Source: Hemileia vastatrix
Taxonomy: Eukaryota; Basidiomycota; Pucciniomycetes; Pucciniales; Zaghouaniaceae
NCBI GenBank assembly: GCA_030280995.1
Contig: JASXTE010000002.1
Span: 26,943,683-27,007,682 of the forward strand
DNA: 64,000 bases
Direction: 5' to 3'
Part shown: positions 521-40,926 of the stretch, in pieces
How positions within the stretch are numbered: position 1 is the first letter of the stretch
Layout: each line of letters opens with the position of its first letter
Translations under genes and position numbers: made by a program
Notes under the pieces: model-generated
Told to the model about the DNA's origin: nothing
What the model saw: the letters and a program-made list of their open reading frames with translations, nothing else
Database searches by the model: none

Positions 521-534
521 CTAAAAAGATTGCT

Positions 535-2085: not shown

Positions 2086-2089
2086 GTAG

Positions 2090-3967: not shown

Positions 3968-4249
3968 AGTCATCAAATATTTTTTATTTTTTAATAATTT
4001 TTTTATAAATAACTCTTATATTTCAAATTCTTAAAGTGAAGTAATGGGCCAACAACCTTGTGTTGTATAAATGGGAATCATGACCAAATTTATTTTTTTC
4101 ATGAGTTCCTTGGCCTACACTTGTGGAAAGTCCTAAAAATTTATCTCTAGATGTATCCACATTTTGGCTTGAGGGATTGTCATTACTTTAAACTAGGGAA
4201 ATTGATATATATTAGATATTTATTTAATAATTTACGTAATTATATTAAA

Positions 4250-4600
4250 TTTAGATGACTTCCACCACTTACTTCAATAAAATGCAGGGGGGGGTATTGC
4301 CAAATTTTCAAATCTGACATGTGAAATTGAGGACTTAGAAAAATTTTGGTGATACCCACCCCTTGCTTCAATAAAATTCAGGGGAGGGTATTGCCAAATT
4401 TTCATATGAAACTTGCAAAAATAAAATTGACTTGAATTTTTGGAGATAACCATCCCTTACTTCAATAAAATGCAGGGGGTAGTATTGCCAAAATTTCATA
4501 TAAGACTTGAAAAAAAATAATTTGGGTAATACTTGCCCCTTAGTTCAATCAAATGCAGGGGTGGTATTGGGAAATTTTAAATGTGACTTGAAAATTTTAA
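4250..4600. repeat. Tandem repeats of about 95 bp between convergent genes, copy A
   Basis: Four degenerate units each contain a C- or G-rich patch, CAATAAAATGCAGGGG and a stretch like CAAATTTTCA. The same repeat occurs at 26590-27010 in the other copy, again between the 3' ends of the Tet-like and trihelix genes. The position suggests a 3' end or transcription-termination zone; this is inferred. Confidence 0.6.
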
Positions 4601-4778
4601 CTAAAAAAGGGTTTTTAACATTAAAAACTCTTGAAAATTTTATTTAAAAAAGAATTTATAACATTAAATTATGAAAATTCAACTAATGATCAATATAGTG
4701 AAGAAATACAGGAAATTAAGATAAAATTTTATGAACAATTAATTATGAACAGTTGAAGTGTGAGAGAAATAAAACAAA

Positions 4779-6171
4779 CTAGTCATCAAACAATTTCTTT
4801 AAATGTTCAATTTCCTCAACAAATTTATTAGCTTTAACACATTCTATCAAGAAATATTTCTTTTTGGAATATTCTTCACAATCAAGCTTATATTTCATCT
4901 ATTCCATGAGGTTTTGATGCTTGAGTGTTTTCTCCTCTTTCATTGATTTTTCAATACTTAGAGATAACTCAAATTTTTTCTCCTCCAAGTATTGTGCCCT
5001 ATCATCCTTCTGTAAAGAGTTTTTTTACTTCCTCTCCTCCAAGACTTGTGCCCTATCATCCTTCCGTTAAGAGATTTAAAACTTACTCTCTTCCAAATCA
5101 TGTACCCTGTAATCACTCTTTAAAGAGAGCTCATATTTTTTCTTTTCAAACTTTAGAGTCTCTTTAGCAACTTCCACTTGTTCTAGAGTGATAATAAATA
5201 TTAACAAAAAGTAGAAGAAAAGCAGAGTAAAGTATTAAGAGGCTGGGCATCACTTACCAGCATCACATTTCTCCAAAAATTCTTCAATAGAAGAATAAGG
5301 GGTTTGAAATTAAGTATCATTTTTTCTTCTTCTTTAAGAGGGGAAATTTAGACTACTTGAAGCCCTTTGCTTTTTTTTCAACATCCCATTTTTCTCCTCA
5401 TCATTGTCGCTGGCTTCTGAATCAGTTAATTGTGGCTCCTACATTTGTTCTTCAGCCTTTTTAGAAATAAGAAAATTTAAATAAAAAAAAGAATTGATAA
5501 GATAAAAGAAAAAAAACATACTTAAGTTAGATCAGGTTGGTTTATATTTACATAAGGATCTATTGAAAAGATATCTTGATTTGTGGAAGTTAAACAAGGG
5601 GAGGCTTGAGTAGAAGAAGAAGAAAAAAATTTCTTTTGACATCATGATTGGAGATAGAATCTTTACCATCCAACATGTTTTCAAAATTAAAATCAGCTTG
5701 CTCTCCAAAAATAGCATCCATCTCTTTAAAGTAAGGACATAAAGAATCAAGTTTATTGTCTATGAATTTGATGCCCTTACTGATATCAAGGTCAGTAATA
5801 CTAAAACCGGTAGAAGATGAAAGAGTCTTTGCCTTCTTGTATTTGGCTCTATAATTTTTGAAGCTTTCAGAAATTTATTTAGGTAAAAGATCTATCCTTC
5901 CCTTGGTCTAATTCCATAATTCCTTGTCCATTAAAAGATAACCATAAACTTTTTATGCTGGGGTCCATCCTACTTTATTTGCATTTTTGGTACCAAAACA
6001 AGAGTCATAGTTCGATTTAGTTTTCAGCCAGTCAATAAGAATAAGATGATCATCTTTTTTTAATTGAAAGTTATTTTATTTCTTGGCCGAGAAGGGGAAA
6101 GATGGAGTAGTGCAATTTGAAGAACAACTGGGGGAAGGCTGCCTTTGAGAAGATCTATGATGACAGGTCAT
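4779..6171 (-). pseudogene. Trihelix/Myb-like Harbinger accessory protein, copy A (decayed)
   Basis: Antisense homologue of the gene at 25107-26456. The start fits ATG at 6171 followed by a Ser/Gln/Pro-rich segment ending in SAKK. A stop follows at once, where the other copy continues into the DNA-binding domain. The C-terminal coiled-coil repeats around 4930-5150 (motif DDRVQDLEE in the other copy) are recognisable on the minus strand but frameshifted. Harbinger-type elements usually encode a Myb/SANT or trihelix protein that helps the transposase reach the element ends. Confidence 0.65.
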
Positions 6172-6449
6172 GTTAAGATAATTGAAGATGAAAAGGAGCA
6201 AAATAAGCAGATGAGATAGGGAGATGTTCTGAATGGAGAGAATGGGAGTGTGAAGAAATGTAGAAGGCATATCCAGAGTGTAGTCAAAGATGTGGTTATG
6301 AATGATAATAGGCCAAGATGTGGTTATGACAGAAAGTTGTCCAATATGTGGTTTTGAAAAATTGAGTAGGAAAATGTTGGATAAGAGGTCAACTTTGAAA
6401 CATAAAATGTCTAAAAATCCAATTATTAGCAAAAATAATTGTGGAAGAT

Positions 6450-6516
6450 AATTGGGGTATAAGGATTTTTATCTGCAATTAATTTAATTGCAGATTGGTC
6501 AACTTTTATACCCCCT
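6450..6516 (-). repeat. Terminal inverted repeat end of Harbinger copy A
   Basis: Read on the minus strand from 6516 it begins AGGGGGTATAAAAGTTG and then contains a palindromic CTGCAATTAAATTAATTGCAG segment, aligning with the left end at 24739. The flanking AAT at 6517-6519 matches the AAT seen at the other Harbinger ends. Confidence 0.75.
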
Positions 6517-6619: not shown

Positions 6620-7198
6620 AGGGGGTATCAATATTAATGGATCTGCAATTAGGGATCAGGAATTTCTTTCCCTGAATCAGACACTATGAATCGCACAGGA
6701 TTCTTATCCACTAGCCCTTGTGATGGTGGATATGCAATGCACAATATTGCATTATCCTGCCTCTTATACCCCAATTTTTTTTTCCATTCCCAATCCCTGC
6801 TCCCAAACTCATAAAATCAATGATTTATTTGTAAGAAATTCACATGACATATAATTGCAGATGTCATCCTTATTTCACTCTTCACTCTAGGCCACTTAAT
6901 TTTGGTGGAAAAAACTTAAGATTTTTTTCTATCTCCACTTTCCCCTGCTCATTTGGTAGAAAATTTCTGCTTCCCTCATCACGTAAACCTTCAACCAACA
7001 ACTATGAAGCACTTCTCTACTAGGAAGTGGCTTGCATAAACTATGGATTTTATCACTTTATCTTTAATTTCTGAATCTGATTATTCCTCTGATTTATAAA
7101 CCACTTTAGCTTATATGTTGATTCTTTCCAAGAAGTGTTACATCAGACAAAAGGGGACAAATCTTGTTCATGATCCCAGATACAATCTTCACTCAATC
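6620..7198 (-). mobile_element. Right end of a second Harbinger-like element (copy B, relic)
   Basis: Starts AGGGGGTATCAATATTAATG after AAT and matches the reverse complement of 40320-40916, including TTATCCACTAGCCC and TATACCCCAATTT. It lies only 103 bp from the end of copy A, with the ends facing each other. It runs into a transposase start at 7043 and is interrupted at 7199 by a solo LTR. Weak similarity may resume after 8380, and a leader-like block at 9530 could be its continuation. Confidence 0.7.
7043..7198 (+). pseudogene. N-terminal fragment of a PIF/Harbinger transposase
   Basis: ATG at 7043 followed by a frame with one stop that reads into LSKKCYI and VHDPRYNL, matching LSKKCYI and YHDPRYDL of the transposase at 39994-40497. 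Coding stops at the LTR insertion at 7199. Sequence beyond 8380 is too decayed to rejoin with confidence. The catalytic core is not present here. Confidence 0.65.
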
Positions 7199-20340: not shown

Positions 20341-20399
20341 CTCCTCCACTCTAAAAAAACAATAAAAAAAATGCTATGATTTTTCTTTTTATACTTTTT

Positions 20400-24666: not shown

Positions 24667-24738
24667 GTAAGCATTCATTTGAATTACTAATAATTTTGAA
24701 CATAATATTATAAAAGCTGATGAAATGTTTAACATAAT

Positions 24739-24801
24739 AGGGGGTATCAATGTTCAGGGATCCGCAATTAAATTAATTGCGGATAAAAATCCTTATACCC
24801 C
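24739..24801 (+). repeat. Left terminal inverted repeat and subterminal palindrome
   Basis: The first 32 bp match the right end at 40885-40916 exactly in inverted orientation. Bases from about 24759 form a nearly perfect palindrome, CCGCAATTAA then TTAATTGCGG around one central base. The next motif, CTTATACCCC, is the inverted form of GGGGTATAAG seen inside the right end near 40765. These are likely transposase or trihelix binding sites (inferred). Confidence 0.85.
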
Positions 24802-25106
24802 AATTATCTTCCACAATTATTTTTGCTAATAATTGGGTTATTGGACACTTTAAGTGTCAATGTTCACCTCTTATCTGACATTTTTTTACTCAATTTTCCA
24901 TAACCACATCTTTGACAACCTTCTGTCATAACCACATCTTGACCTACTTTCTGCCATAACCACATCTTAGACTACTCTCTGGATATGGCTTCTACCTTGC
25001 TGAACACTCACATTCTCGTCCCATCCTGTCCATTCTATCCACTCAGAACCCCTCACCATCTCATCTGCTTGTTTCTGCTCCTTTTCATCTTCATTTATAT
25101 TTTAAC

Positions 25107-26456
25107 ATGCCTTGACGTCCTAGATCTTCTCAAAGGCAGCCATCACCAAGTTGTTCTTCAAATCCCACTACTCCCACTTTCCCCCACTCAGCCAAGAAAT
25201 CAAAGACTGTTCAATTAAAAAAAGATGACCATCTCATTCTTATCAACTGGCTGAAAACCAAATCTAACTATGATTCATGTTTTGGTACTGAGTATGCCAC
25301 TAAAGTAGGACGGCCCCCCGCATCAAAAGTTAATGTCTATCTTCTAATGGCAAATGAATTACGCAATAAGACCAAGGGAAGGATTGATCTTTTGCCTAAA
25401 CAGATGTCTGAACGCTTCAAGCATTACCGAGCAAAATACAAGAAGGCAAAGGCTCTTTCATCTTCCACGGGTTTTGGGATTACCGACAACAATATAACTA
25501 AGGGCATAAAATCCATAGACAAGAAACTTGATTCTTTATGTCCTTACTTTAAAGAGATGGATGCAATTTTTGGAGAGAGAGCTGATGTTAATCCTGTAAA
25601 CATGTTGGATGGAGAAGATCCTATCTCCGAAAATGATGTCGAAGCAAATCTTTTCCCATCCTTTTCCTCCACTCAAGCCTCCCCTCATTTGAATGAGACA
25701 TATCTAGATAGCTTTTCTGTAGATCCTATAGGTGATTTAACCCAACCGAATCTAACTCAGGTCTGTTTCTTTTTTCTTTTATCTTATCATTTCTATTTTT
25801 TATTTACTTATCTTTTTCTTATTTATTAAAAGGCTGATGAACAAACCCAGGATCCTCAATCAACTGAGTCTGAAGCTAGTGAAAATAATGAGGAGGAAAA
25901 TGCTACATTGAAAAAAAATAGAAGGGCTTCAAGTAGTCTAAATTTCCTCTCCCAAAGAAGACAAAAAAGTGATACTTCATCACAAACACCTTTTTCTTCG
26001 ATGGAACAGTTTTTAGAGAAATGTGATGCTGGTAAGTGATATCATACCTCTTATTACTTTACTCTGCTTTTCTTCTACTTTATGTTAATTTTTATTCTCA
26101 CTCTAGAACAAGTGGAAATCGCTAAAGAGACTCTAAGCTTTGAAAAAAAGAAATACAAGCTCTCTTTAATGAGGGATGACAGAGTACAAGATTTGGAAGA
26201 GAGGAAGTACGAGCTCTCCTTACAGAACGATGATCGGGTCCAAGATTTGGAGGAGAAGAAGTTTGAGTTAACTCTTAGTATTGAAAAATCCAAAAAAGAG
26301 GAAAAAACACTCTAGCATCAAAACTTAATGGAACAGATGAAGTATAAGCATGATCTTCAAGAAAGTTCTAAAAAGAAAGATTTCTTGATCGAATGTATTA
26401 AAGCAAAAAAATCTGTTGAAGAAATAGAACAATTAATGAAATTTTTTGTTGACTAG
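25107..26456 (+). pseudogene. Trihelix/Myb-like accessory protein of the Harbinger element
   Basis: A DNA-binding partner protein of a PIF/Harbinger element; such proteins help the transposase bind the ends and enter the nucleus. Exon 1 (25107-25760) has a Ser/Pro-rich N-terminus and a trihelix-like domain (HLILINWLK, FGTEYATKVG, LPKQMSERFKHY) followed by CPYFKEMDAIFGE, a signature common in fungal transposon Myb-like proteins. Introns 25761-25832 and 26032-26106 have good GT/AG ends. Exon 3 has two or three coiled-coil repeats (DDRVQDLEE-K-YELSL). Two stops break it: TGA as codon 3 and TAG at 26313. Either is a single change from a sense codon, so decay is recent. Copy A starts at the equivalent ATG. 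Confidence 0.75.
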
Positions 26457-26589
26457 TTTCTTTTATTTTGCTCACACTTCATGTGTTCATATTTATTTGT
26501 ACATAAATTTTACAATTATTTTCTGTATTTCTTGAAATATCGTATTTTAATGTTAAATATATTTTTTAAATAAAATTTTCAAGTCTCCT

Positions 26590-27010
26590 TTGAAAATTTG
26601 ACAATCCCCCACCCCTGGATTTTTTCGAAGTAAGGGGTGGGTATCACAAAAATTCTTTCATGTCATGAATCTTGAAAGTTTTATATGAAAATTTGGCTTT
26701 ACTACCCCCTGCATTTTACCGGTATCCCAAAAATTCTTACATGTCAAGAATTTCACAAGTCTTATAAGAAATTTTGGCACAACCCCCCATGGATTTTATT
26801 GAAGTAAGGGACGGGTATCACAAAAATATTTACAAGTCAAAAAAATTCTATATCTGTTTAAAAAAATTGGCAATACTCTCCCCTGCATTTTATTGAAGCA
26901 AGGGGTAGGTATCACCAAAATTTTTCTAAGTCATCAATTTCACATGTCAGATTTGAAAATTTGGTAATACCCCCCCCCCCCCTGCATTTTATTGAAGTAA
27001 TGGGTGGAAG
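26590..27010. repeat. Tandem repeats of about 95 bp between convergent genes
   Basis: Four to five units share GGATTTTATTGAAGTAAGG, GGGTATCACAAAAAT and a C-run. They lie between the 3' ends of the trihelix (plus) and Tet-like (minus) genes, as in copy A at 4250-4600. The longest C run is at about 26970. Confidence 0.65.
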
Positions 27011-27306
27011 TCTTCTAAATTTAATATAATTACATAAATTATTAAATAAATATCTAATATATATCAATTTCCCTAGTTTAAAGTAATGACAATTCCTCAA
27101 GCCAAAATGCAGACCAAGTCAAGAAACAAAAGTTTGGGACTTTCCACAGGTATAGGCAAGAGGAACCCCATGAAACAATAAATGTTATCATGATTACCTG
27201 TTATACAACACAAGGTCGTTGGCCCATTACTTTAGTTGAGGAAATTGATATTTAAAAAATATTTATTAAAAAGTTATGAAAAAATATAAAATTTTTGATG
27301 ACAACT

Positions 27307-28552
27307 CTAATCCCCATACTTTTTTGATCTAGATAAGGTTTTTTTAAATTGATTAACTTTATCTTCTTTCTTTATTTTGTTGATTCTTTGAATCAACTTT
27401 TGACTTATTTGAAAAGAACAACCGAAATGAGTGAAATCTTGAAAGGATTCCAAGCCAGGAGGAGCTTTGGTTGTTTGATGATTATCCTTAGAAGAATTCC
27501 AAATAGTTTCAATGATACCATTTCCCAAACCAAAATCAATGATGCACCGGTGGTCTGGAAAATATAAACCATGTCCTTTGATTTTAGCTGGAGATGGTAT
27601 TGGGTGGCCAGTTATCGGATTGATATATGAGAATATTCCAAAAGTAAGAAAATTGGAATCATTCCTATCGATATGAATCCTATTGTGGAATCCATAATGA
27701 GTGATGATAACATTAGAAAATAAAAGATATTCATGGCTGATATCTTCCCATTCGGAGTCACACCAATTCGGTATTTCAACTTTGGTTGCCAGTTCATGAT
27801 TTTTTTCAAATGCCTTATTACAGAGCTTTTTGAGTCGAAGAGCAAGAAAAGAATTAAAGGAAGGTAGAGTGTCCTATAAGCAAAAATCTTCATCTTTTTG
27901 TGCTTTAGTGATATTATTGAGCAATGAATATATACCTATATAATTGAAATAAGTGAAATGATATTAAGAATGGAACAAAAATTATTAGACATACCAAGAG
28001 AATATCCTTTGACAAAACCAGGTCTCCAACCAAAACCAATCATGATACCACCCAACAAATTCTTATTCCTTATAGGTAAGCAAACCAAAGCCATTTGATA
28101 AGGAGTTATGATAAGATCCGATAGTTGATTAAAAGCTTCATCTTTTACACCATCGAATGAATGAACTTCCAAAATGAATTGAGGCTTAAAAGCATTGCTG
28201 ATAACTGCAACAACTTGATCATCTCCAAATTCTGTTAGATATTTGATATCTTCTTGGAATTTTTTTGGATATTGAATTTTTTTATCTACTTTAGTTTTAT
28301 AAAAAAAATGTTTGGGATATGACAAAAATAACTTTCGCAGAGAATCCTTTTTTTTAATATCTTTTCTTCTGATGAGACTGATTATCTTTAATTTTTTGAT
28401 GATTTAGAAGATGATTGTATGGAAGTTGATTTCAAAGAAGATGATAGAGTTGATTTCAAAGAAGATGATAGATATGATAAAGATGAAGAAGATAAAGAAG
28501 ATAAAGATGAAGATAAGAGAGAAGTAAGGGGTGAATCAGAAGAAGAAGACAT
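27307..28552 (-). pseudogene. Tet-like 2OG-Fe(II) oxygenase carried by the Harbinger element
   Basis: A fungal TET/JBP-type dioxygenase; such enzymes use Fe(II), oxygen and 2-oxoglutarate to oxidise 5-methylcytosine in DNA. The minus-strand order is a Ser-rich N-terminus from ATG 28552, a region ending RPGFVKGYSLG, and an intron (donor GTATGTCTA near 27995, acceptor ATATAG near 27932). An uninterrupted core follows: WCDSEWEDI, FSNVIITHYGFHNR, iron ligands HID, FGIFSYINPITGHP, GHGLYFPD, IIDFGLGNGIIETIW, third ligand His in DNHQTT, and HFGCSFQIS, where many relatives have Arg-Phe-Gly. All three predicted iron ligands are present. Breaks are a frameshift with stops after the Ser-rich segment (about 28380) and TAG near 27867. 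The transposase is transcribed on the same strand from upstream. Confidence 0.8.
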
Positions 28553-28561
28553 TTTTTTGAT

Positions 28562-30144
28562 CTGAAAAAAAAATTAATTGTCAATAAAATTTTAACTCAA
28601 ATTTTTTTTAAAAAAAATTCCTACCTAATAATAAAAAAAGATGTTTTTTTATTTTAAAAATAAAATTGAAAAAAAACCAAAAAATCAGTAAAAAATTTTC
28701 CAAAAAAAAAATTTATAAAAAAAAACCTGAGGTTTTTTTTTAAAAAACACAATAAAAGCAAAATCCTATTAAAAAAATTAATAATTAAATTCATTCAAAA
28801 AAGAAAATTTCAGTAAAAATTAAATCACAAAAAAAAATTTTTTAAAAAAAATTAAAAGTGAACCTGAAGATTGGTTATTAAAAACCTTCTCACAAGATCA
28901 TGAAAAAAAAAAATCAGTAAAATAAAAATAAAAAATAAAAAAATTATTTAAATAAAATCAAAATCACAAAAATTAATTATAGAAAAATTAAAAATAAAAT
29001 TATAAACCTTTTTTGTTTTGTAAATAAGAGGGACAGTCCTTATCAGAAAGAATTTTTTTTTTTCTATATTACTGCAAAAAAAATAAAAAAAATAATCAAA
29101 TTAAAAACAAAAATTTGTTAGTTTCTTTATTTGAAAGTTGGTAACCCATCTTTATCTCTCATAAATGTCCCCTTTTCCCCCTCAAATGCTCTCCTTGCCC
29201 GCCTCAAAATCCCCCTGAAATACACCCCTTTCCCCCCTCTTTAGGTCCCTCATCACCCTCCTTCCCCCCTCTTTAGCTGCATCAAACCCCCCCCATTCCC
29301 CCCTCTTTAGCTGCCTCAAACCCCCCCCCCCATTCCCCCCTCTTTAGCTGCCTCAAACCCCTCCCCCATTCCCCTCACCTTAGGCGCCTCAAACCCCCCC
29401 CATTACCCTCACCTTAGGCGCCTCAAACCCCCCCATTCCCCTCTCCTTAGGCACCTCAAACCCCCCCCTTCCAATCACCTTACCCCCTCCCAAACCTTTA
29501 CCACTTTCTCTACCCTCCCCCCCCCCCACCTCCTTTTTAACGAACGATCTGTAACGATCGTTCGTTAATAATCAGGGGGGGGGGGGGTAGAGGAGGATGT
29601 AACGATTTGGTAGGGGGGTAAAGTGAGTAGAAGGGGGGGAAGGGGGGGTTTTTGAGACGCCTAAAGAGAGGGAAAGGGGGGGTTTGATGTGGGTAAAGAG
29701 AGGTGAAGAAGGGGGGGTTTGAGGCGGCAAAAGAGAGGTGAAGGGGGGGTTTGAGGGACATAAAGAGAGGGGAAGGGGGGTGTATTGAAGCACCTAAAAG
29801 GATGGGAAGGGGGGTGATGAGGGACCTAAAGAGGGGGGAAAGGGGGGATTTTAGGCAGCTAAAAAGGGGGTAAAAAGGGGGTCAGAGACAGGTAAAGAGA
29901 GGAAAAAAGGGGGGCCTTGAGGATGATAAAGAGAGGTGAAGGAGAGAAAAAAAAACAAAAAAAAAGAGAAAAAAGAGAAAAAAGCAAAACAAAAATTAGT
30001 TTACCCTAGAACAAAAATAAAAGAAGCACTTACAAAAAAAACAAAAAAAACAAAAAAAAAGCAAAAAAAAAAGGAAAAAAAAGCAAAAAAAAAAATCATG
30101 ATTAGCAAATAAAAAACCATGAAAAAAGAAAAAAAATGACCTAC
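28562..30144 (-). other. Long 5'UTR intron of the Tet-like gene
   Basis: Minus-strand donor CACCAG/GTAGGT at 30145/30144 and acceptor TTTTTTCAG ending at 28562, ten bases before the ATG. The same donor and acceptor positions exist in copy A (155-2755). Besides A-rich low-complexity DNA it holds a large inverted repeat (29160-29935). Splicing is inferred from consensus sites and conservation between copies. Confidence 0.5.
29160..29935. repeat. Large inverted repeat with C-rich and G-rich minisatellite arms
   Basis: The left arm (29160-29530) is built from units of about 30-35 bp like CTCTTTAGCTGCCTCAAACC with C runs. The right arm (29575-29935) is built from inverted units like TTTGAGGCGGCAAAAGAGAG with G runs. 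The centre is a 12-bp perfect hairpin stem, TAACGAACGATC / GATCGTTCGTTA around TGTAAC, at 29538-29567. The whole could fold into a very long hairpin or form G-quadruplexes. Confidence 0.8.
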
Positions 30145-30444
30145 CTGGTGAGTTGAGTTGAGAAAATAAATGCAACCAAAATATTTGAGGGATGTTTGAG
30201 GAGAGGATGAAAAGGATATGAGTGATGAATGAAAATAAAAATCACTGACAAAATATGTGATATAAGAAAATATACAATTTCATGTTGAGGAAGTGAAAGA
30301 AAACCAATGAGCCATCCAAAAAAAAGATATTCACCGTAAATTCAAAAAAAAAAATTGAATATGCAACAAACCAAAATACAAAACCAAGTGATTAAAGTAC
30401 ACAAAGAGGACATTTGGAAAGTATGAAAACATAAAAATTAAAAA

Positions 30445-31153
30445 TTAAAATGGTGAAGAGAAATGTTGGAGAGTAATTGGCATTATAATGGGGAGTATGC
30501 TGGTTGATTGAATGATTTGTGAATCAAGGGAGGGGAGTGCCAGTGGTGGTTCAGGATCCTCTTCTTCATAAAGATCATTCCACTTGTCCTTTAAATTAGC
30601 TAGAATATTGTGGAGTATTACGCAAGTCAAGATCCAATGATTTGCAGTTTTGATCTCCAATTTTTTTTGAAATTGGATTCTGAGCTCCCGAAGACTAGAA
30701 AATTGTCCCTTTAAAATACCTATAGCATGTTCAATTCGTACTCTTGATTGTGCAAGGTGATAATTAAATTTAGTTTTGGGGTCATTTTCTGAATTTGCAC
30801 CACGGAAAGCAGGTATAATGTACTTTCCACTTGCATATGCTGAGTCTGCAAGGAGGTACTGAGATTCGTGAAAGTATGAGTCAGGGGATTGAGAAATCCT
30901 CATTCTTTGGAAGACGGAAGAGTCATGACATGATCCAGGGCAGCCACTGTGAAAAGCAATAAATTTTTTATTGACATCGCATACAAGTTGAACGGCAATA
31001 GAGTATCCAGAAAGAAGATAAAAAGTTAGATTGTGAAAGATGAGAACTTGGAGGAGATTTTGAAGAAACCTTTTTTTGCGATCAAAATAATGGTTGCCAT
31101 CATTAGCAGGCTTTTGACTCAAAGGGATGGTTGTGCCATCAACAAAACCTATA
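30445..31153 (-). pseudogene. PIF/Harbinger DDE transposase, C-terminal part
   Basis: The catalytic half of a DDE-type Harbinger transposase, which cuts and joins the element ends. On the minus strand from the Ty3 junction: CIGFVDGTTI (first Asp), a short segment that may be an unrecognised intron, LVCDVNKKFIAFHSGCPGSCHDSSVF (in shorter terms, second Asp in HDSSVF), LLADSAYASG, IIPAFRG, then SRVRIEHAIGILKGQF with the catalytic Glu, and VILHNILANL. All three acidic residues are visible. It is continued upstream by 39994-40497; the Ty3 insertion splits it just before the first catalytic Asp. Confidence 0.85.
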
Positions 31154-31972
31154 CAGCCAGGCTACTAGACTTACCCAGTGAAATAAGGAATTATTTACTG
31201 GATGAAGCCGCACCTTATCATCTTTAATTATTATTTAATTATCATTTAGTTACATTAACATTAGTTATAAATTAACTAGTTACAGAATGTTAAAACTAAA
31301 TTAATTAATTAAATAAATAAGTAAAATTATAATTATAATTTTGTCCCTTATATTTTCTCTAACACCGTGCTCAATTGACAGGTTGGGAAAAATAAAACTT
31401 TATATTTAAAAAATAAAATACAAAGATAAAATAAGATTTAAATATTCAAATAATATTAAATATATACAAATAAATCAAATTTCTTATTTGGAATTGACAT
31501 TTAAAGTAAATATTAAAAATATTGATGTATTTCTGACATACTCTGTAAATACATCTTTTTGACGCCTTCTTTATGGAATAACTTTATTATTTGAAATTTC
31601 CTTTCTGGAATGTTCTTTTTCTCTCTTTTTTCCTACTGTTTTTAGAATTTGATTTCCGTGCTTTGTCTCTCCTTTGCCTATAAAAGGCCTCTCTTTTTGT
31701 TGTCTTTTATTCATTCTATCTTACTAAACCATTTTATTACAACAATAACCAATAAAAACTTATTCTTATATATTCTATATCATTAGTATTTACAATAACG
31801 TAATTCTAATTTATAAATTATATTAATATTTTAATTCTACCTCTTTTATTTGAGTAAAACAATCATTTTTGAATTAAGAAATACGTACAAATTTGTTGAG
31901 AATCCATTTAAACCTTTTAAATCCTCGTAGAACTTCGTACCAAAACTTCTAGACTAAAAGCGTACCTTGACA
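31154..31972 (+). repeat. 5' LTR of the nested Ty3 element (family 1)
   Basis: Begins CAGCCAGGCTACTAGACTT (TGT missing) and ends GCGTACCTTGACA. A TATA box GCCTATAAAAGGCC near 31678 marks the promoter. The putative primer-binding site TTGGGATCCTTTCC starts at 31974. Confidence 0.9.
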
Positions 31973-32113
31973 ATTGGGATCCTTTCCGAAATATCAATGG
32001 CGCAACGTTACTTGAGGCATAATCGAGGGGACCATCGGCGTACAAGCACCTGTAAAGGACGAGTGGAGGCAAGAAAAACGACGAACGTCATACGTCACAT
32101 GATAAAAATTTTT

Positions 32114-32176
32114 GCTGCGAACGGGAATTGAACCGCGCTCCAAAACTTAAGTTCATATACTGACTAAAGATCGTAT
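32114..32176 (-). other. Antisense tRNA-like sequence in the Ty3 leader
   Basis: Read on the minus strand it has a D-arm/A-box-like ATCTTTAGTCAGTAT, a central hairpin AACTTAAGTT, a B-box-like GGTTCAATTCC and an acceptor-like GTTCGCAG. The arms do not pair well, so it is not a functional tRNA gene. The element at 56440 has an alignable sequence at the same leader position (57786-57838). Confidence 0.4.
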
Positions 32177-32433
32177 ATATCGTGGTAATTATTGTGATTA
32201 CTATTTGTGGGTTACTCTTCACTCTTCATTTGCTACATATTTCCTTTTACTCAGCACTCTGTAAGTGGCATTAATTTGCTCATTTTGCAGGGGGAGGTGT
32301 CTGGTAATTGGAATTTATTTTTATTATTATATTTTTTTTTATTTTTCCTGGTTGACCATAATAGAGCAATACCTGTTCTTAGTCCCAGAGGTAATAAAAT
32401 AATTATATATTAATATTAATTATTATCATTTTT

Positions 32434-33003
32434 CAGTTGACAATTGTCCTGATTAATTTGAATTTTAATTGTTCCAGTTGACAAACTGTCCTGACAATAA
32501 TATTTTTTATTAAATAAAATAATTATTATAATTTTTCAGTTGACATTTGTCCTGATTAATTAATTGTTCCAGTTGACAAATTGTCCTGACAATTATATTT
32601 TTTTTTTAATAAATAATTAACATTTCATTACTTCAGTTGACTTTGAGTCCTGGTAATCCAATAAATCTTTCTAATTAATAAAACTCATATTTAATTACTT
32701 CAGTTGACATGAAGTCCTGGTAGTTAAGTGATCAGTAATAAAACTTTAAAACTTCATATTTAATTACTTCAGTTGACATTAAGTCCTGGTAGTTAAGTGA
32801 TCAGTCAAAATAAATTTTTTTTGATTAATAAAGATTCATATTTGATTATTTCAGTTGACAATAAATCCTGGTAATAAATTAGTTGATTTAAATCCTGAAA
32901 ATAAAAATTAATAGAAATTCTAATTTATTTCTACAGTTGATTGCATTATCCTGGTTTTAAATTTTTTTTTATTAATTTTATTTAAGTTGATTTTTATCCT
33001 AAC
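32434..33003 (+). repeat. Array of short CAG-TTGAC...TCCTG-GTA units in the Ty3 leader
   Basis: About ten imperfect copies of a 16-17-base core, TTGACA(N5)GTCCTG, each preceded by a T-rich stretch ending in CAG and several followed by GTAA or GTAG. Spacing is roughly 50-70 bp. Each unit resembles a micro-exon with its own acceptor and donor. The other Ty3 leader has only one or two such units (near 57999 and 58112). Confidence 0.6.
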
Positions 33004-33111
33004 AAGATTTTTTTTATTACTTTTATTTTATTTTTTCTGTTAAAAAAAAAATTAAAAATAAAGACTAATTAATTTTTTGTCTCTTTTCCTTCATTTCAGT
33101 AGAATCTTAAG

Positions 33112-33781
33112 ATGACTGATCAAAGTGGCTTTGCTTCACGTGAAGAAGAACTAGACTTAATTGATTATGATGAGCCTACTTCTGTAAGTTCTCCTTTAAC
33201 AAGAAGAATTTCTCAAACTAATAAATCCTTGCCCCAAACAGGATGTGGAAATGGAAGAAGTAGAAATCCTAGTGGGCAATACTCAGGATCAGAAACCCAG
33301 GACAAACCCACCAGAAGAGCTTCCAAGAGGCTTCAAGATAAAAAAGATGCCGTTGTCCCAGCAGATAAAGAATCTGTCAACCCACATAAAGGAGTTAAAG
33401 ATAGACAGCTTAAAACTAAAGGTAAGGGTAGATGCCTTGGAAGAATGGGAGAAAAGAAAAAATACTTCTCTCCAAGAGAAAAGAAAACCTCTTCCTCCCA
33501 GGGATCAACAACAATTGGCTCCCCAATCCCAAGAGATGGTAGAAGTGTCCAAGTGGCAGTGGGACTGGCTCAACACACAGTGGGACTACTTAGCTCAAAA
33601 TCAGCATCAATTACCTCACGTAGGTCCATCAAGGCCCACCCAGGCAAACCCCACTCCTCCCCACCCTTATCAAGGAGGCAAAAGAAGAAGGAAACCCAAT
33701 ATGGTGATACCCAGCAAACCCTGGTATGTCCCTCTATTGATTCTCAAGTGCCTTTTCTTGTGGCTGACTCTGTTCCTTTAG
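33112..33781 (+). CDS. Overlapping frame reached by removal of a conserved intron
   Basis: Splicing out 33184-33241 (donor TCT/GTAAGT, acceptor AAACAG, 58 nt) joins the first 24 codons to the +1 frame. This yields a protein of about 200 residues: acidic start, a coiled-coil-like part (LSTHIKELK), a Trp-rich segment (WQWDWL) and a Pro- and Arg/Lys-rich tail (GGKRRRKP). The element at 58389 has the same intron (58464-58527, 64 nt) and the same frame (58480-59070), with clear protein similarity (LP-GFKIKK-PL-QQI-NLS-HIKELK). The +1 frame is visibly better conserved than the Gag-Pol frame over the same bases. The product's role is unknown; an accessory or alternative Gag N-terminus is possible. 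Confidence 0.55.
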
Positions 33782-36700
33782 GTAAATCTGGAAGGCAGGA
33801 TGAAACCTTGAGACCTATAGAGGCTGGGAATAGTAGACAGTTATCTCATGTATCCAATCCATTACTTTTAATTGCTACCTCAATGATTAATCCTGATATG
33901 GCTGTGATTGATGAAACTCTTGACCCTGAGTTCTATGAGAGCCTGGAAAGTTACTCAGTTTCCTTATTGAGAAACACTCCAGATGTAGTAAAGATTAATG
34001 ATGAGTACTTGAGAGATATTATTGCCAAACAAAACCATATAATGAACAATATGCAATTGACTCAGAGATATAATACTTTGTTAACTGATAAGGGTTATCA
34101 AGCATTAAGAAGTGAATCACAGAGAGTCTCTGATGAATTGTCTCATTACAAAGCAACCCATGAAAAGAAAGTTGATTTATGGCAAAATATAAAAAATTAT
34201 TTGTCTAAACTGAAAGATACTGTATCTGCCTGTTGCCAGGAGGTGGAGATAAATAAGATGAATCTGAAAAGATTGAATGACCATTTTTCATCTTTTCAAA
34301 ATAAGAATCAGTTATCTTTTGAAACAATCAAAGAGAGTTTATCTAGTCTTCCAAGATTGAAAACTAGACTAACAACCATTGAGGAGAAATTGAACTCATT
34401 GTTTATTGATCAAAATTATTCTGAGATTTCTTTGAAGGAACAAATAGTACAGGATGCTCCAGAGTTACCTGTGGCTAGTTCATCTAAAAGTAAATTAGTT
34501 CCAGAAATACCTGTTGATAACACTGAGTTTCCATCAAAAACTGATGATGCACCAGGATCTGCAACAGAATTAAACAATGAGATTTCAGCACAATTAGAGA
34601 AATTACAGCTGCTTCTTACTCAGAAACAAGCTAGTACTAAGGAGACTCCTTCAAATCAAAAGAATTGGCCAAAACTTGACCAGTACCCAACATTTGATGG
34701 TGATTCTTCCTCTGATTGGCAACAATTTATTTGCAGAATTGATAATTTAAAAAATTCTTACAAACTCCCAGATGAGGAAATTGTGTCCAAATTAATTTCT
34801 TTGTTTACTAATGTTGCCCTGATGTGGTATGAATCTGTTCTCCTGGATGGGAATGACTACTCATGGGAGGATTGGAAGAAATTAATTAAAGCACAATTTG
34901 GTGGCTCCAAGTTCAGAATGGCTCAACAAAGGCAGTATGAGGAAACTAAATATAGCTCTTCTACTGATAAAACTATTGAGTTTTTAATGAAACTTGTAAA
35001 AATCTTAAGGGCAATGGACCCAAATATGGATTTTGATTTATGGAAGGACAGGATCCTCTATAAATTACCAATGTCTCTGAGAGACTTGATTGTGGCTAGG
35101 ACTGAGTTCTCCAAAGAACCCTCTTCTTTCATTAATACTTGCAATGAGATACTTCTAAACAATAAGTATGATGCAAGAAGATTCATTCCTAGGACCCCTT
35201 TGGAGAAACCCTCCACTTACCAACAAAAACCTCAGGAAAAGGTTGGTAAACCTTCTGCCCCTGTTGCACCAAAGAAATATGCAACAAACACTTGCTTCAA
35301 GTGCAACAAGCCTTGGCAGAAAGGCCATGTTTGTGACAGGAAGATAAATCTTGTAGAACAAACAGAGGAGCATGCTGATGACACAGTGGCACTGGACGAT
35401 ACATCAAGTGATTGTGCTAGCAATATTTCATATGAATCTCAACAAGAAATCTTGATGCTGGAAGAGGATATTCATTATTTAAATACTATTGACATTGATA
35501 ATAATGATTTATCTACAGTTGAGGATGCTGAGATCATAAAGAACATTGAGGATAACTCAATTGTTATTGCCCCTCTTAAGGCACCAGTCTTGAATAATGG
35601 AACCAGCATTGAAGTTGTTCTGGATTCTGGAGCTGGAGGAAGTGTAGTATCTGAAAGAGCACTTGCCTCAGTAGATCAAGACTATAAATCTAAACTGTTG
35701 CATATCATTTCTGAAAATTGGAGAGGGTATGGCTCTGTTTTGTCCCCCATTGGTAAATACAAAGCCACAGTGTTTTTTAAATATAACAATGGTTTTGTAA
35801 GAGCTATTTGTTATTTTGTTGTCATGAAAAATGATAACTTGAGCAATTGGTTTATTGTAGGGAATGATATTTTAACCAAGTATGGCATAAAATTGGATCC
35901 TTCAAACCAATGTTTCACAATGGGGTTGAATGGGAAGAGAAAATTTAAAATTTCCTCCTCTAAAAAATTATTAAAACCAGAATTGAACACATGTAATTCT
36001 GTGGTTCAATATAAAGGAAGATCTACAAAGGAAATGCATGCCCTTATGTCTGAAATTGACAATGCCTCTTTTGGAGAACAACTTTCTGGTGAGGATAAAG
36101 ATTCCATCATTAACTTGATAAAGTCTTTTCCTATGGCCTTTACTCATGGGTCACATGAACTGGGATTAGTTAAAGAAGAAATGAAACTTTCATTGTCTTG
36201 CCCATTAACTGATATACCACCTAGTTTAAAGAAGAAGCCTTATCCTGCTTCTCCCACAAAGAGAAAAGATATTGAAGATAATATCTCTACCCTTTTAAAA
36301 ATGAATATTATTGAAAAGGTAGTTGAAACACCTAAATATTGTGTTATCTCACCTGTCCTAATTTCTTATGAGAAAGATAAAGCCAGGTTATGTGGTGATT
36401 ATAGAGCACTAAATACTTATACTGTTGATGATATCTATCCTTTACCTAGAATCAGCTCTATACATGCTACTTTACAGGGTGCTAAATATATCAGCTGTTT
36501 GGATGGTAATAAGGGATATCACCAGGTGCCTGTTGAGAAGAACTCTCAGAACTTTCTGATGATTGCCACTCATATGGGTATTTATAAGTATATTAGGATG
36601 CCATTTGGCCCTAAAAATGCCCCTTCTGTTTTCCAAAAAGTAATGGATAACACATTCCATCAAGAGATAATTGAAGGTTGGCTGATGGTTTATATTGATG

Positions 36701-37515
36701 ATATCATTATATTCTCAAAAACATTTGAGGACCATCTTAAACACCTGTGTAAAGTATTCCAGAAAATGGATGAAATAAATATGACACTTGCTTTGAAGAA
36801 ATGTAAATTTGGTTTCCATTCTTTAAAAGTTCTTGGTCATGTTGTTTCAGGCTTACAGATATGTGTTGACCAGAACAAAGTGGCAGCCATACAACAGGTG
36901 AAAGCTCCTACAACAGTGAGAGAGCTCCAAAGTTTTTTGGGAATGTGTGGATACTATAGACAGTATATTAAAAATTACCAAGTCATAGCTTTACCCCTTA
37001 CCCAATTAACTAGAAAGGATGATGCTTTTGTCTGGAATAGTGAAAGACAAAGAGCCTTTGACACTATGAAACACTGTTTGATGTCAGCACCAATTCTTGC
37101 TTTACCTGACTTTGATCAACCATTTGTTTTGTACACTGATGCCAGTTTTATTGGTCTTGGTGCTGCCCTCCATCAAAAACAAGTGATAAATGATAAAGTT
37201 TCAGAGGTAGTAATTTGTTATATTTCAAGAACCTTGAGAAATAGTAAATTGAAATATGGTGCTACTCAATTAGAGTGTTTAGCTGTAGTATGGGCTCTGG
37301 AAAAGCTTCATTATTACCTAGATGACCAGAAATTTGAACTTGTCACTGACTGCAGTGCAGTTAAATCCCTATTAAGCTTGAAAACACCTAATAGACATAT
37401 GTTTAGATGGCAGCTGGCTGTTCAAGAATACAGAGGGAGAATGACAATTATTCACAGAGCTGGTATTGGTCACTCAAATGTGGATATTTTTATCAAGGTT
37501 ACCCTTACCAAATGA
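33112..37515 (+). CDS. Gag-Pol polyprotein (Gag, protease, RT, RNase H), frameshifted at the end
   Basis: The polyprotein of the nested Ty3 element. From ATG 33112: a low-complexity N-terminal region that overlaps another frame; coiled-coil-like segments (aa 300-460); a Gag core (WPKLDQYPTFDG, aa 520-680); a zinc knuckle CFKCNKPWQKGHVC (aa ~728, CX2CX7HXC type); a pepsin-like protease with DSGAGG (aa ~837); reverse transcriptase with LCGDYRALNTY and YIDD (aa ~1194); and RNase H with LYTDASFIGLGA (aa ~1341). Relative to the copy at 61089-63374, one extra T in the run at 37487-37491 shifts the frame, giving an early stop at 37515 instead of running into integrase. Whether translation starts at 33112 or further in is uncertain because of the conserved leader intron. 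Confidence 0.85.
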   Translation: MTDQSGFASREEELDLIDYDEPTSVSSPLTRRISQTNKSLPQTGCGNGRSRNPSGQYSGSETQDKPTRRASKRLQDKKDAVVPADKESVNPHKGVKDRQLKTKGKGRCLGRMGEKKKYFSPREKKTSSSQGSTTIGSPIPRDGRSVQVAVGLAQHTVGLLSSKSASITSRRSIKAHPGKPHSSPPLSRRQKKKETQYGDTQQTLVCPSIDSQVPFLVADSVPLGKSGRQDETLRPIEAGNSRQLSHVSNPLLLIATSMINPDMAVIDETLDPEFYESLESYSVSLLRNTPDVVKINDEYLRDIIAKQNHIMNNMQLTQRYNTLLTDKGYQALRSESQRVSDELSHYKATHEKKVDLWQNIKNYLSKLKDTVSACCQEVEINKMNLKRLNDHFSSFQNKNQLSFETIKESLSSLPRLKTRLTTIEEKLNSLFIDQNYSEISLKEQIVQDAPELPVASSSKSKLVPEIPVDNTEFPSKTDDAPGSATELNNEISAQLEKLQLLLTQKQASTKETPSNQKNWPKLDQYPTFDGDSSSDWQQFICRIDNLKNSYKLPDEEIVSKLISLFTNVALMWYESVLLDGNDYSWEDWKKLIKAQFGGSKFRMAQQRQYEETKYSSSTDKTIEFLMKLVKILRAMDPNMDFDLWKDRILYKLPMSLRDLIVARTEFSKEPSSFINTCNEILLNNKYDARRFIPRTPLEKPSTYQQKPQEKVGKPSAPVAPKKYATNTCFKCNKPWQKGHVCDRKINLVEQTEEHADDTVALDDTSSDCASNISYESQQEILMLEEDIHYLNTIDIDNNDLSTVEDAEIIKNIEDNSIVIAPLKAPVLNNGTSIEVVLDSGAGGSVVSERALASVDQDYKSKLLHIISENWRGYGSVLSPIGKYKATVFFKYNNGFVRAICYFVVMKNDNLSNWFIVGNDILTKYGIKLDPSNQCFTMGLNGKRKFKISSSKKLLKPELNTCNSVVQYKGRSTKEMHALMSEIDNASFGEQLSGEDKDSIINLIKSFPMAFTHGSHELGLVKEEMKLSLSCPLTDIPPSLKKKPYPASPTKRKDIEDNISTLLKMNIIEKVVETPKYCVISPVLISYEKDKARLCGDYRALNTYTVDDIYPLPRISSIHATLQGAKYISCLDGNKGYHQVPVEKNSQNFLMIATHMGIYKYIRMPFGPKNAPSVFQKVMDNTFHQEIIEGWLMVYIDDIIIFSKTFEDHLKHLCKVFQKMDEINMTLALKKCKFGFHSLKVLGHVVSGLQICVDQNKVAAIQQVKAPTTVRELQSFLGMCGYYRQYIKNYQVIALPLTQLTRKDDAFVWNSERQRAFDTMKHCLMSAPILALPDFDQPFVLYTDASFIGLGAALHQKQVINDKVSEVVICYISRTLRNSKLKYGATQLECLAVVWALEKLHYYLDDQKFELVTDCSAVKSLLSLKTPNRHMFRWQLAVQEYRGRMTIIHRAGIGHSNVDIFIKVTLTK

Positions 37516-39133
37516 TGACTCAAATCCTGCTTATGATCCTGAGGATGAAATTATCCATATCCATGGGATATATGTGGTTGATATGGAGGAAGAGCTATTA
37601 CAGCTTATTCTGGAATCATATGATAAGGACACTGACTTGAAAAAGTTATGCACCATATTAAATGATCCAAAGAATGCTTCAATACAAGCATTAATTAAAA
37701 CCCTTCCACCAAAGTACCAAAAAGGTTTGGAAAAAGGAAAATTTTCAATTGATGAAGGATATCTATATTATAGAAGAAAGTTGAGTAATGTTATTGTTAT
37801 TCCTCCTTCTATGAAAGAAATCATCTTGAAAATTTGTCATGATGACATATTAGCTGGACATTTTGATCTTGAAAAAACAATGATCAGAATTAAGAACACT
37901 GCTTGGTGGGCTAATATGTCTGAGGACACAAAATTATATGTTGAATCCTGTGATTCATGCCAAAAATCAAAAAGATTAACTGGTAAAAGAGCAGGATTAA
38001 TGCAACATATTGAACCTCCTGATGCTCCATGGCAAATAATAAACATGGACTTTGTAACAGGATTACCTATTGCTGGTAAAGACAGTTATAACTCTTGTTG
38101 GGTTATTGTGGACAGATTCACAAAATTGTGTAAATTTATCCCTACCCACAAGGATGTTTCCACTAAAGAATTAGCTTTCTTATGGTGGTCTCATATGCTT
38201 AATACTGCAGGTTCTCCTAAAGCCATAATCTCTGACAGAGACCCTAAATTTACTTCTGAATTTTGGATGTCTCTGATGGATGTTTGTGGTTGTGATCTGA
38301 AACTTTCTACTGCCCATCACCCCCAGACTGATGGTTTAGCTGAAAGAATGATTCAGACTTTAGAGGACATGATAAGAAGATATTGTGCCTTTGGCCTTGA
38401 GTATAAAGATAATGACAGATTCACTCATGATTGGGTTACCTTACTTCCTGGGTTAGAATTTGCTTATAATAGCACTGTTCATTCTGTTACTCAAAGAAAG
38501 CCTTTTGAGCTCTGGCTTGGATATGTTCCTAATACTCCTGCCCAAATTCTCAATAACAAAATACCTAAATTGGATATACATCCTGGTGTAAAATCTTTTC
38601 TTCAAATTCAACAACTATGCAGAAATCATGCTCAAAAATGTATTGAAAAATCATTTGAATATGAGAAGAAAAGATGGGACAAATACCATAAAGAATACAC
38701 TTTTAAAAAGGGTGATGAAGTGTTGATTTCTACAGTCCACTTCAACTTACAAGGTAATAACAAATTAAAAGATCCATTTGTTGGTCCTTTTGTTGTCAGA
38801 AGAATGATTGGAGATAATGCAGTTGAAGTTATTCTTTATTCCCCATATGACAGAAAACATCCTGTTTTTCCAATATCTCTTTTGAAACCTTACACATCCA
38901 ATAGTGATTTATTTCCAAGAAGGAGGGGTAGACCAAAGAAAACCCCAAATGAAATCACTGAGACAGCAGAAATTGAAAAAGTATTAAATGACAGAATAGT
39001 CACTGCTGAGAAAGGTACAGAATACTTATTGAGATTCAAGAATAAATCATCTGAATATGATTCTTGGATACCTGGGAAGGAGATATCTAATCTTCCTACT
39101 CTACTAAAAAAGTATAAGAAGAAAAAATCATAG
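37466..39133 (+). CDS. Ty3 integrase with C-terminal chromodomain-like region (Pol, shifted frame)
   Basis: Continuation of Pol after the one-base insertion near 37490. The true polyprotein would enter this frame there, so 37466 is not a biological start. Order: linker, zinc-binding region (CHDDILAGH, then CDSCQKSK; aa ~120-170), catalytic core with INMDFVTGLP, ISDRDPKF and DGLAERMIQ supplying Asp, Asp and Glu (aa ~193, 255, 291), then a C-terminal domain and a chromodomain-like stretch (EYLLRFKNKSSEYDSWIPG, aa ~510-530). Chromodomains direct chromovirus integration toward particular chromatin. The core is intact by eye. Confidence 0.85.
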   Translation: MVTQMWIFLSRLPLPNDDSNPAYDPEDEIIHIHGIYVVDMEEELLQLILESYDKDTDLKKLCTILNDPKNASIQALIKTLPPKYQKGLEKGKFSIDEGYLYYRRKLSNVIVIPPSMKEIILKICHDDILAGHFDLEKTMIRIKNTAWWANMSEDTKLYVESCDSCQKSKRLTGKRAGLMQHIEPPDAPWQIINMDFVTGLPIAGKDSYNSCWVIVDRFTKLCKFIPTHKDVSTKELAFLWWSHMLNTAGSPKAIISDRDPKFTSEFWMSLMDVCGCDLKLSTAHHPQTDGLAERMIQTLEDMIRRYCAFGLEYKDNDRFTHDWVTLLPGLEFAYNSTVHSVTQRKPFELWLGYVPNTPAQILNNKIPKLDIHPGVKSFLQIQQLCRNHAQKCIEKSFEYEKKRWDKYHKEYTFKKGDEVLISTVHFNLQGNNKLKDPFVGPFVVRRMIGDNAVEVILYSPYDRKHPVFPISLLKPYTSNSDLFPRRRGRPKKTPNEITETAEIEKVLNDRIVTAEKGTEYLLRFKNKSSEYDSWIPGKEISNLPTLLKKYKKKKS

Positions 39134-39171
39134 CATTTTTTTTTTATATTATTTTTTTTAGAGTGAGGGAG

Positions 39172-39993
39172 TGTCAGCCAGGCTACTAGACTTACCCAGT
39201 GAAATAAGGAATTATTTACTGGATGAAGCCGCACCTTATCATCTTTAATAATTATTTAATTATCATTTAGTTGCATTAACATTAGTTATAAATTAACTAG
39301 TTACAGAATGTTAAAATTAAATTAATTAATTAAATAAATAAGTAAAATTATAATTATAATTTTGTCCCTTATATTTTCTCTAACACCGTGCTCAATTGAC
39401 AGGTTGGGAAAAATAAAACTTTATATTTAAAAAATAAAATACAAAGATGAAATAAGATTTAAATATTCAAATAATATTAAATATATACAAATAAATCAAA
39501 TTTATTATTTGGAATTGACATTTACAGTAAATATTAAAAATATTGATGTATTTCTGACATACTCTGTAAATACATCTTTTTGACGCCTTCTTTCTGGAAT
39601 AACTTTATTATTTGAAATACTCTTTCTGGAATGTTCTTTTTCTCTCTTTTTTCCTACTGTTTTTAGAATTTGATTTCCGTGCTTTGTCTCTCCTTTGCCT
39701 ATAAAAGGCCTCTCTTTTTGTTGTCTTTTATTCATTCTATCTTACTAAACCATTTTATTACAACAATAACCAATAAAAACTTATTCTTATATATTCTATA
39801 TCATTAGTATTTACAATAACGTAATTCTAATTTATAAATTATATTAATATTTTAATTCTACCTCTTTTATTTGAGTAAAACAATCATTTTTGAATTAAGA
39901 AATACGTACAAATTTGTTGAGAATCCATTTAAACCTTTTAAATCCTAGTAGAACTTTGTACCAAAACTTCTAGACTAAAAGCGTACCTTGACA
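39172..39993 (+). repeat. 3' LTR of the nested Ty3 element (family 1)
   Basis: Complete, TGTCAGCCAGG...CTTGACA, 822 bp, TATA box near 39701. Preceded by the purine tract ending at 39171. It meets the Harbinger transposase sequence GAAACCTTC directly, with no target duplication. Confidence 0.9.
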
Positions 39994-40497
39994 GAAACCT
40001 TCAGCTTGCATTACTTGAGAGGATTCAAGTTGCTGTTCTGGAGTTGGCCAAGCAAAAGTTTGAGACTTGAGGGAAACAATAGCAATCATACAGCGCTTGG
40101 TGTATAATATCACGGTACCATATCCTATGTTAAAGAGATTATCCAAACGTCTTACAGCAGCACCATTTCAATTTGAGCCAAAGCGACATAGAGCAACAGC
40201 AAGTTGGATGGCACAATTACACTGTTTGTTATGAGAATTGTTATGCAAGATAGGATTATCGGAGATGAGTTGATAAAGTTTGAAGAAAGAATCGGGAGAA
40301 GTTCTAAAAAGTTGTGTGAATTTTAAATGAGGAATGTTGAGAATGGAGGCCAGATCATATCGGGGATCATGATAAAGATTTGGCCCCCTGGTGATGATGT
40401 AACACTTTTTGGAAAGAAAACACATATAAGCTAAAGCATCTTCCAAATCAGAGTCAGATTTATATTAAAGAACTAAAAGAAAAGTAATAGCATTCAT
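39994..40497 (-). pseudogene. PIF/Harbinger DDE transposase, N-terminal part
   Basis: Minus-strand frame from ATG 40497 (supported by the aligned ATG in copy B at 7043). It includes LSKKCYI, YHDPRYDL, FKLYQLISDNPIL and CAIQLAVALCRFGS, then NGAAVRRLDNLFNIGYGTV and a Trp-Pro segment, all typical of the region before the DDE core. Stops are TAA at about codon 11 and TGA near 40168. The protein then enters the Ty3 insertion and resumes at 31153. Together the halves are of normal Harbinger transposase size (about 380-400 residues). Confidence 0.8.
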
Positions 40498-40884
40498 TGT
40501 TGAGTGAAGTAGCTTCCTAGTAGAGAGGTGTTTCATTGTTGCCGGTGGAAGGGTTATGTGATGAGGGAAGTGGGAATTCACCGCCAAATGTGCAGTTGGG
40601 GTGTGTAGATAGGAAAAAAAATTAAGTGTTCACCACCAAAATTAAGTAGCATAGAGTGAGGAAAGACTTAAGGATGGCATCAGCAATTATGAGTCATGTG
40701 ACTTTCTTGCAAATCCATCATGGATGAGATTAGTTTGGGATCAGGAATTAGGAATGGAAATTGGGGTATAAGAGGCGGGATAATGCATTTTTGTGGATTT
40801 CTTATCCACTAGCCCTGGGGCTAGAGGATAAGAATCTTCCGCAATTAATAATGTCTGATCCCAGGAAAAAAAATTCCTGATCCC

Positions 40885-40916
40885 TAATTGCGGATCCCTG
40901 AACATTGATACCCCCT
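40885..40916 (-). repeat. Right terminal inverted repeat of the Harbinger element
   Basis: Reverse complement of 24739-24770 without mismatch; ends CCCCCT at 40916 and is followed by AAT. Just inside is a second palindrome-like part, TTTCCTGGGATCAGAC on the minus strand. Confidence 0.85.
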
Positions 40917-40926
40917 AATTTAAAAG

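Follow-up and report, generated by a model that had tools for sequence, protein, structure and literature searches.

A PIF/Harbinger-type transposon family of Hemileia vastatrix with an optional Tet-like oxygenase gene and a 3-bp target duplication

When a gene for a Tet-like 2OG-Fe(II) oxygenase lies between the ends of a DNA transposon, does it belong to the transposon, and what would the enzyme do for it? The question is raised by a 64,000-nt stretch of Hemileia vastatrix DNA, hereafter called the window (all coordinates count from window position 1), and by an element in it whose borders, A...T, were placed exactly at 24739 and 40916. The element combines a DDE_Tnp_4-type transposase, terminal inverted repeats and a short (2-3 bp) target duplication, as PIF/Harbinger (PHIS) transposons do. 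Its family is characterised by A-GGGGG...CCCCC-T ends and an AWT duplication, and encodes the DDE transposase together with a partner protein that is helical and DNA-binding-like; the Tet-like 2OG-Fe(II) oxygenase is optional. The window element itself is a dead copy, with stops in all three genes and a transposase gene additionally split by a nested Ty3 retrotransposon. It is probable, taking all evidence together, that it descends from a cut-and-paste family whose Tet-like enzyme would oxidise 5-methylcytosine (5mC), keep the element genes expressible and act in trans.

The predicted translation of 27307-27873 (minus strand) matched the profile PF20515 with an E value of 7.1e-28 (98.5 bits, cut-off 27), and the iron ligands of the HxD...H motif, H66, D68 and H131, are invariant in a two-sequence alignment with P0001. 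The Tet protein of another copy, L029, matched the same profile with an E value of 1.5e-37 (130.1 bits, cut-off 27). The transposase was identified by DDE_Tnp_4 on 30445-31161, minus strand (E 4.8e-27, 95 bits, cut-off 24.8). Protein relatives were found in Phakopsora pachyrhizi and Puccinia striiformis, as fits a rust. The match of the partner protein to Myb_DNA-bind_4 (E 0.0011) was under the cut-off in a profile search, and a partner profile search returned weak V-ATPase matches alone (E 0.83 or worse). PDB sequence searches with Tet exon 2 and with the partner exon gave no match, and a structure model built from 2 sequences (mean pLDDT 41.5) was too poor for use. An earlier note on this DNA had described 32-bp perfect terminal repeats, a Harbinger-type DDE transposase, a Tet-like oxygenase at 27307-28552, a trihelix partner gene and a second copy with the Tet and partner genes in equal arrangement. 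The repeats were confirmed at 24739 and 40916, with AAT on both flanks, the two enzymes were returned by the profile searches, and the second copy was recovered with its left end at 6516; the partner gene is present, whereas its trihelix label goes no further than the sub-threshold match.

The genome searched comprised 747,610,610 bases in 791 contigs. In a six-frame search with the transposase, the best 150 of 15,000 first-look candidates were scored; apart from the window itself these were 95-97% identical, and 144 of the 150 had no stop. The corresponding search with the Tet exon of L029, in which the best 150 of 15,138 candidates were scored, gave exon-2 matches of 96-100% identity, 117 of the 150 without a stop. 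Between the two lists 35 transposase places pair with 35 Tet places, all on the same strand and 2.8-3.7 kb apart, and no opposite-strand pair lies within 8 kb; since each list holds the best 150 matches, there are at least 35 such pairs. Twenty loci were taken from the first 25 rows below the window's own, a non-random sample by transposase similarity, and L029, L030 and L031 were selected afterwards for a Tet match near a transposase match. A copy was regarded as complete when both ends lay inside the retrieved stretch, as they did at 14 of the 20 loci. Apart from the window copy, five complete copies enclose Tet between the shared ends (L009, L015 and L024, plus the Tet-selected L030 and L031). 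In L029 all three genes are open (partner 418, Tet 458 and transposase 419 amino acids); its left end is beyond the retrieved stretch and its right end does not match the end pattern used.

These numbers bear on the reading that Tet and the transposase are unrelated neighbours joined by nested insertion. The window is rich in repeats and does contain one genuine nested insertion, the Ty3, so that such a reading has to be considered, yet chance neighbourhood is ruled out by the 35 same-strand pairs of near-constant spacing and by the five bounded copies, and the reading is next to impossible. The claim of the earlier note that the Tet gene is part of the element is thereby upheld. Consistent lack of the gene in other copies had been named there as one result that would speak against it, and this was found in part: 11 of the 14 complete copies are Tet-less, while a large Tet+ set persists.

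Tet presence in the 20 loci was called by tblastn at 1e-8, and the exon was found in six of them (L009, L010, L015, L016, L024 and L027), including three of the complete copies (L009, L015 and L024). For L013, one of the Tet-less complete copies, a distant match to Tet (42%) lies beyond the borders of the element. The Tet region is replaced or deleted in the Tet-less copies, and the replaced intervals are 97-100% identical where alignable, which indicates that the Tet-less form multiplied recently. No open frame of more than 109 amino acids, and thus no other cargo, was seen in the replaced interval of the Tet-less copies inspected (L012, L014 and L020). The copies compared make a loss of Tet likelier than its late acquisition: Tet occupies the same place in the old second copy of the window, and L016 holds Tet plus part of the replacement interval.

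With PF20515, 10,849 first-look candidates were obtained genome-wide, of which 150 were scored, all above the cut-off, and none of 14 control genomes was matched. Many of these matches lie in open frames of about 325-400 amino acids, with the profile starting from position 7 or 8, and are longer than exon 2 of the window family, which suggests that Tet genes are also carried by further transposon families of this genome.

Substitution patterns indicate that the catalytic exon 2 of Tet is under purifying selection. Its omega was 0.28 (codon bootstrap 0.15-0.48) among nine Tet+ copies, compared pairwise although copy pairs are not independent, and 0.22 against the old decayed second copy. For the C-terminal half of the transposase omega was 0.50 (0.20-1.30) in nine Tet+ copies, and for partner exon 1 it was 0.48 (0.27-0.92) in seven copies. 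In the nine Tet+ copies (L009, L010, L015, L016, L024, L027 and L029-L031) synonymous divergence (pS) was 0.074 for Tet and 0.057 for the partner versus 0.016 for the transposase, a contrast that hints at exchange between copies.

The mutations of the copies were also compared at CpG and other positions. Among 12 Tet- copies, group-private C>T changes affected 37 of 1152 CpG site-copies versus 16 of 12,288 other C/G; among nine Tet+ copies the counts were 30 of 808 versus 22 of 8557. Between pairs of no more than 1% divergence, which overlap, 22 of 71 differences in Tet+ and 320 of 756 in Tet- copies were of CpG type, although CpG accounted for 68 of 1940 aligned positions. The share of CpG among differences thus exceeds its share of positions, and CpG is a mutation hot spot in both forms, as expected of methylated DNA. 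The observed/expected CpG ratio was 0.26 in the window and 0.52 at the transposase end of the element. Protection by Tet of its own copy from CpG decay was considered and not upheld. The group-private counts made it plausible at first, with a raw excess over other C/G sites of 14-fold in Tet+ and 25-fold in Tet- copies, but Tet+ copies have diverged further, and the contrast between the two forms is unconvincing once divergence is matched.

By analogy with other Harbinger elements, the transposase and the partner protein would bind the ends and mobilise the element. The Tet-like enzyme would oxidise 5mC at CpG of transposon DNA or chromatin, and this may keep the element genes expressed. Its product probably works in trans, since the Tet-less sister copies have multiplied, and it would then be a shared good exploited by Tet-less derivatives.

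Several results weigh against this account of the enzyme. The 11 Tet-less complete copies do without the gene, though they retain transposase and partner-exon sequence; Tet exon 1 is without clear constraint (omega 0.65, 0.40-1.85); and Tet is open from ATG to end across both exons in only three of the nine Tet+ copies (L024, L027 and L029). The counts at matched divergence are too small for protection in cis to be demonstrated. When only variants private among all 34 copies were counted, the excess was much weaker, with 12 CpG transitions versus 182 non-CpG changes in 19 Tet+ copies and 4 versus 26 in 12 Tet- copies; this way of counting discards CpG positions that were hit repeatedly, and its signal is weak in both groups. 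Twelve places had been added from a PF20515-based list, which also gave their Tet status, and 10 of these had both alignable segments. The cytosine methyltransferase profile PF00145 matched only on four small contigs (8/8 matches, on C74, C228, C350 and C561), and no match was obtained on the long contigs in a six-frame, exon-by-exon genome search that can miss intron-rich genes. Three of the PF00145 contigs were sampled, and two (L033 and L034) had a higher G+C content, 0.44 and 0.48, and may be contaminants. PF12047 matched neither in the genome nor in the controls and is hence uninformative.

The amplification of 11 of 14 complete copies without Tet and the broken Tet frame of six of the nine Tet+ copies would also suit a captured passenger that hitch-hikes without aid to the element, all the more as TET genes are described in PMC12730594 to shift passively among transposon superfamilies in rusts. 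Neither an omega of 0.28 in the catalytic exon, with an upper bound of 0.48, nor the absence of stops from 117 of the best 150 exon-2 matches is expected of a passenger, and this explanation is distinctly unlikely. It is also unlikely, if less strikingly so, that the enzyme modifies DNA otherwise than by 5mC erasure, through a hypermodified base, N6-methyladenine (6mA) or thymine oxidation. The activities of relatives are diverse (CMD1, JBP, CcTET on 6mA), PMC12730594 leaves another activity possible for the PU type, and the long contigs are without a cytosine methyltransferase match; the CpG-specific decay argues on the other side for 5mC being present, now or formerly, in the copies. A Tet-like enzyme that acts on 5mC for the benefit of its family is the explanation preferred here.

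The target duplication of the family was read from 17 complete copies, consisting of the 14 from the first 20 loci, L030, L031 and the window. All 17 have the ends AGGGGG...CCCCCT, and all are flanked by a 3-bp AWT outside A-GGGGG...CCCCC-T (ATT in 11, AAT in six). Reading the ends as GGGGG...CCCCC instead would leave TA on both sides in 17/17, but the adjoining base matches as well. The joined flanks of L019, L020, L023 and L025 align with uninterrupted paralogues that have one AWT and no junction gap. The L023 site also has three less similar paralogues in the window, which depart from this pattern at the junction, one by reading CAT, one by a 2-base shift and one by a gapped alignment. The matching third base and the uninterrupted sites with a single AWT show that the duplication is 3 bp, and a TA duplication was rejected for this family.

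The duplication matters for classification. PMC12730594 (Kojima, Dec 2025) describes 15 TET+ Harbinger families from six rust species, five of Puccinia and Austropuccinia psidii. It gives the lineage the name PHISTA on account of the TA duplications, reports that a third protein of the elements lacks Myb/SANT, and puts forward, from independent data, escape from methylation-based silencing. The statement in the earlier note that its author knew of no described Harbinger family with Tet cargo is therefore superseded. The window family resembles PHISTA in its rust host, Harbinger-type DDE transposase, HxD-type Tet-like gene and third protein that lacks a confident match to Myb/SANT, and it is both TET+ and from Pucciniales; it differs in its 3-bp AWT where PHISTA is defined by TA. 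That it is nevertheless a plain published PHISTA with a TA duplication has in its favour, besides these likenesses, that TA flanks appear in 17/17 copies under GGGGG...CCCCC ends, which makes a TA call an easy phase slip. With a third flanking base that matches in 17/17 and four uninterrupted sites with a single AWT, such an identity is very improbable.

The Pangu group of PHIS is defined by Han et al. 2015 (PMC4482050) by an ANT duplication and has ends that usually begin with AG or GG. Its members, equated in PMC12730594 with Repbase Harbinger2, are described as having a transposase and a second open reading frame and, when autonomous, average about 3.5 kb; their hosts include three basidiomycetes. 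PMC4482050 is inconsistent on the second reading frame, giving it no known motif in one place and Myb/SANT in another. Compared by these features, the window family agrees with Pangu in its ANT duplication (ATT 11 and AAT six of 17) and its AG/GG ends, and differs in that a Tet gene is not part of the description of Pangu in PMC4482050. The KDZ transposons with TET/JBP genes (Kyakuja, Dileera and Zisupton) are likewise fungal and carry Tet-like cargo, but have other transposases and, according to PMC12730594, 7-bp (Kyakuja) or 8-bp (Dileera, Zisupton) duplications. A wider combination, in which rust TET+ Harbingers would all be Pangu-type elements with a 3-bp ANT that was published as TA through a phase slip, and where the Hemileia Tet would be a public good acting in trans to keep the whole family expressible in a CpG-methylated genome, is offered tentatively, as a possibility less likely true than false.

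The features of the window copy and of its relatives in the window are collected in Table 1. The perfect inverted ends, 24738-24770 and 40885-40917, amount to 33 bases when one flanking base per side is included, and lie 16 kb apart. The two ends are identical in the window copy only, and differ around bases 16-19 in 16/16 other complete copies, as if one end of the window copy had been copied onto the other.

Table 1 Coordinates of features of the element and its relatives in the window
Feature	Position	Strand	Remarks
Second, older copy	1..6516	-	partner and Tet genes decayed; far end beyond window
Third copy, transposase-side end	6620..7182	-	78% identical
Left target site duplication AAT	24736..24738	.	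AWT pattern in 17/17 complete copies; single AWT at uninterrupted paralogous sites of four
Left terminal inverted repeat (AGGGGGTATCAATG...)	24739..24770	+	perfect match to right end
Partner gene (helix-turn-helix-like, 'trihelix') exon 1	25107..25760	+	stop at 25113-25115 (third codon) in window copy; splicing supported by intact copy L029
Partner gene exon 2	25833..26031	+	splicing supported by L029
Partner gene exon 3, charged repeats	26107..26456	+	splicing supported by L029
Tet-like oxygenase exon 2	27307..27935	-	PF20515; has HxD and distal H; window copy has a stop at 27874-27876
Tet-like oxygenase exon 1, serine-rich leader and domain start	27995..28552	-	frame broken in window copy
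C-rich and G-rich repeats between Tet and transposase, building large inverted repeats	29190..29943	.	
DDE transposase, C-terminal half	30445..31153	-	DDE_Tnp_4
Nested Ty3/gypsy long terminal repeat (LTR) retrotransposon	31154..39993	+	foreign to original element; LTRs 31154-31972 and 39175-39993
DDE transposase, N-terminal half	39994..40536	-	stops at 40467 and 40170
Right terminal inverted repeat	40885..40916	-	perfect match to left end
Right target site duplication AAT	40917..40919	.	

The nested Ty3, an insertion of 8.8 kb inside the transposase gene that occupies more than half of the 24739-40916 span, went unnoticed in the first reading; without it the element measures about 7.3 kb. Its LTRs are identical at 807 of 819 positions (98.5%). 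No target duplication was seen at the junctions inspected (31154 and 39993), and an 8-base match (CAGCCAGG) between the LTR start and the target marks the left junction, which together suggests a non-standard insertion. At 58368-63941 lies another Ty3 element with about 78% identity to the nested one, and at 20247-21926 a fragment with about 93% identity. In the Tet gene of the window copy the leader is out of frame in addition to the stop in exon 2. The left-end, partner-gene and Tet regions of the second copy are 79-86% identical to those of the first, and its Tet frame is stopped too, at 3395-3397, in the codon that aligns with the stop of the first copy; one copy has TAG there and the other has TGA.

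The element apparently lies within an intron of an SNF2-type helicase gene (23945-24670 and 40927-41488, splice sites judged by eye), whose exon ahead of the element ends within the DEAH motif and whose frame continues past the element, with a TAG interruption at about 40967. A frame at 45500-46876 has a weak match, below the cut-off (E 6.9e-5), to the Plavaka transposase family, another transposon group that bears TET genes elsewhere. Positions 50403-53614 hold an array of 26 palindromic units (AAAAGTGTCCAGCACAAGTTCGGCCGAACTTGTGCTGGACACTTTT-like) with spacings that alternate between about 102 and 137 bases.

The cargo and the anti-silencing idea are already in print (PMC12730594), the main text of which makes no mention of Hemileia. 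New here are the 3-bp duplication, the subfamilies with and without Tet, the selection test and the Hemileia host, the literature search not having been aimed at TET genes in Hemileia. The 3-bp duplication corrects or splits the recently named PHISTA group. For the question whether transposon-borne anti-silencing enzymes serve as self-protection, the H. vastatrix genome offers close relatives with and without Tet; these natural pairs, together with the selected catalytic exon, make the question directly testable by methylation sequencing.

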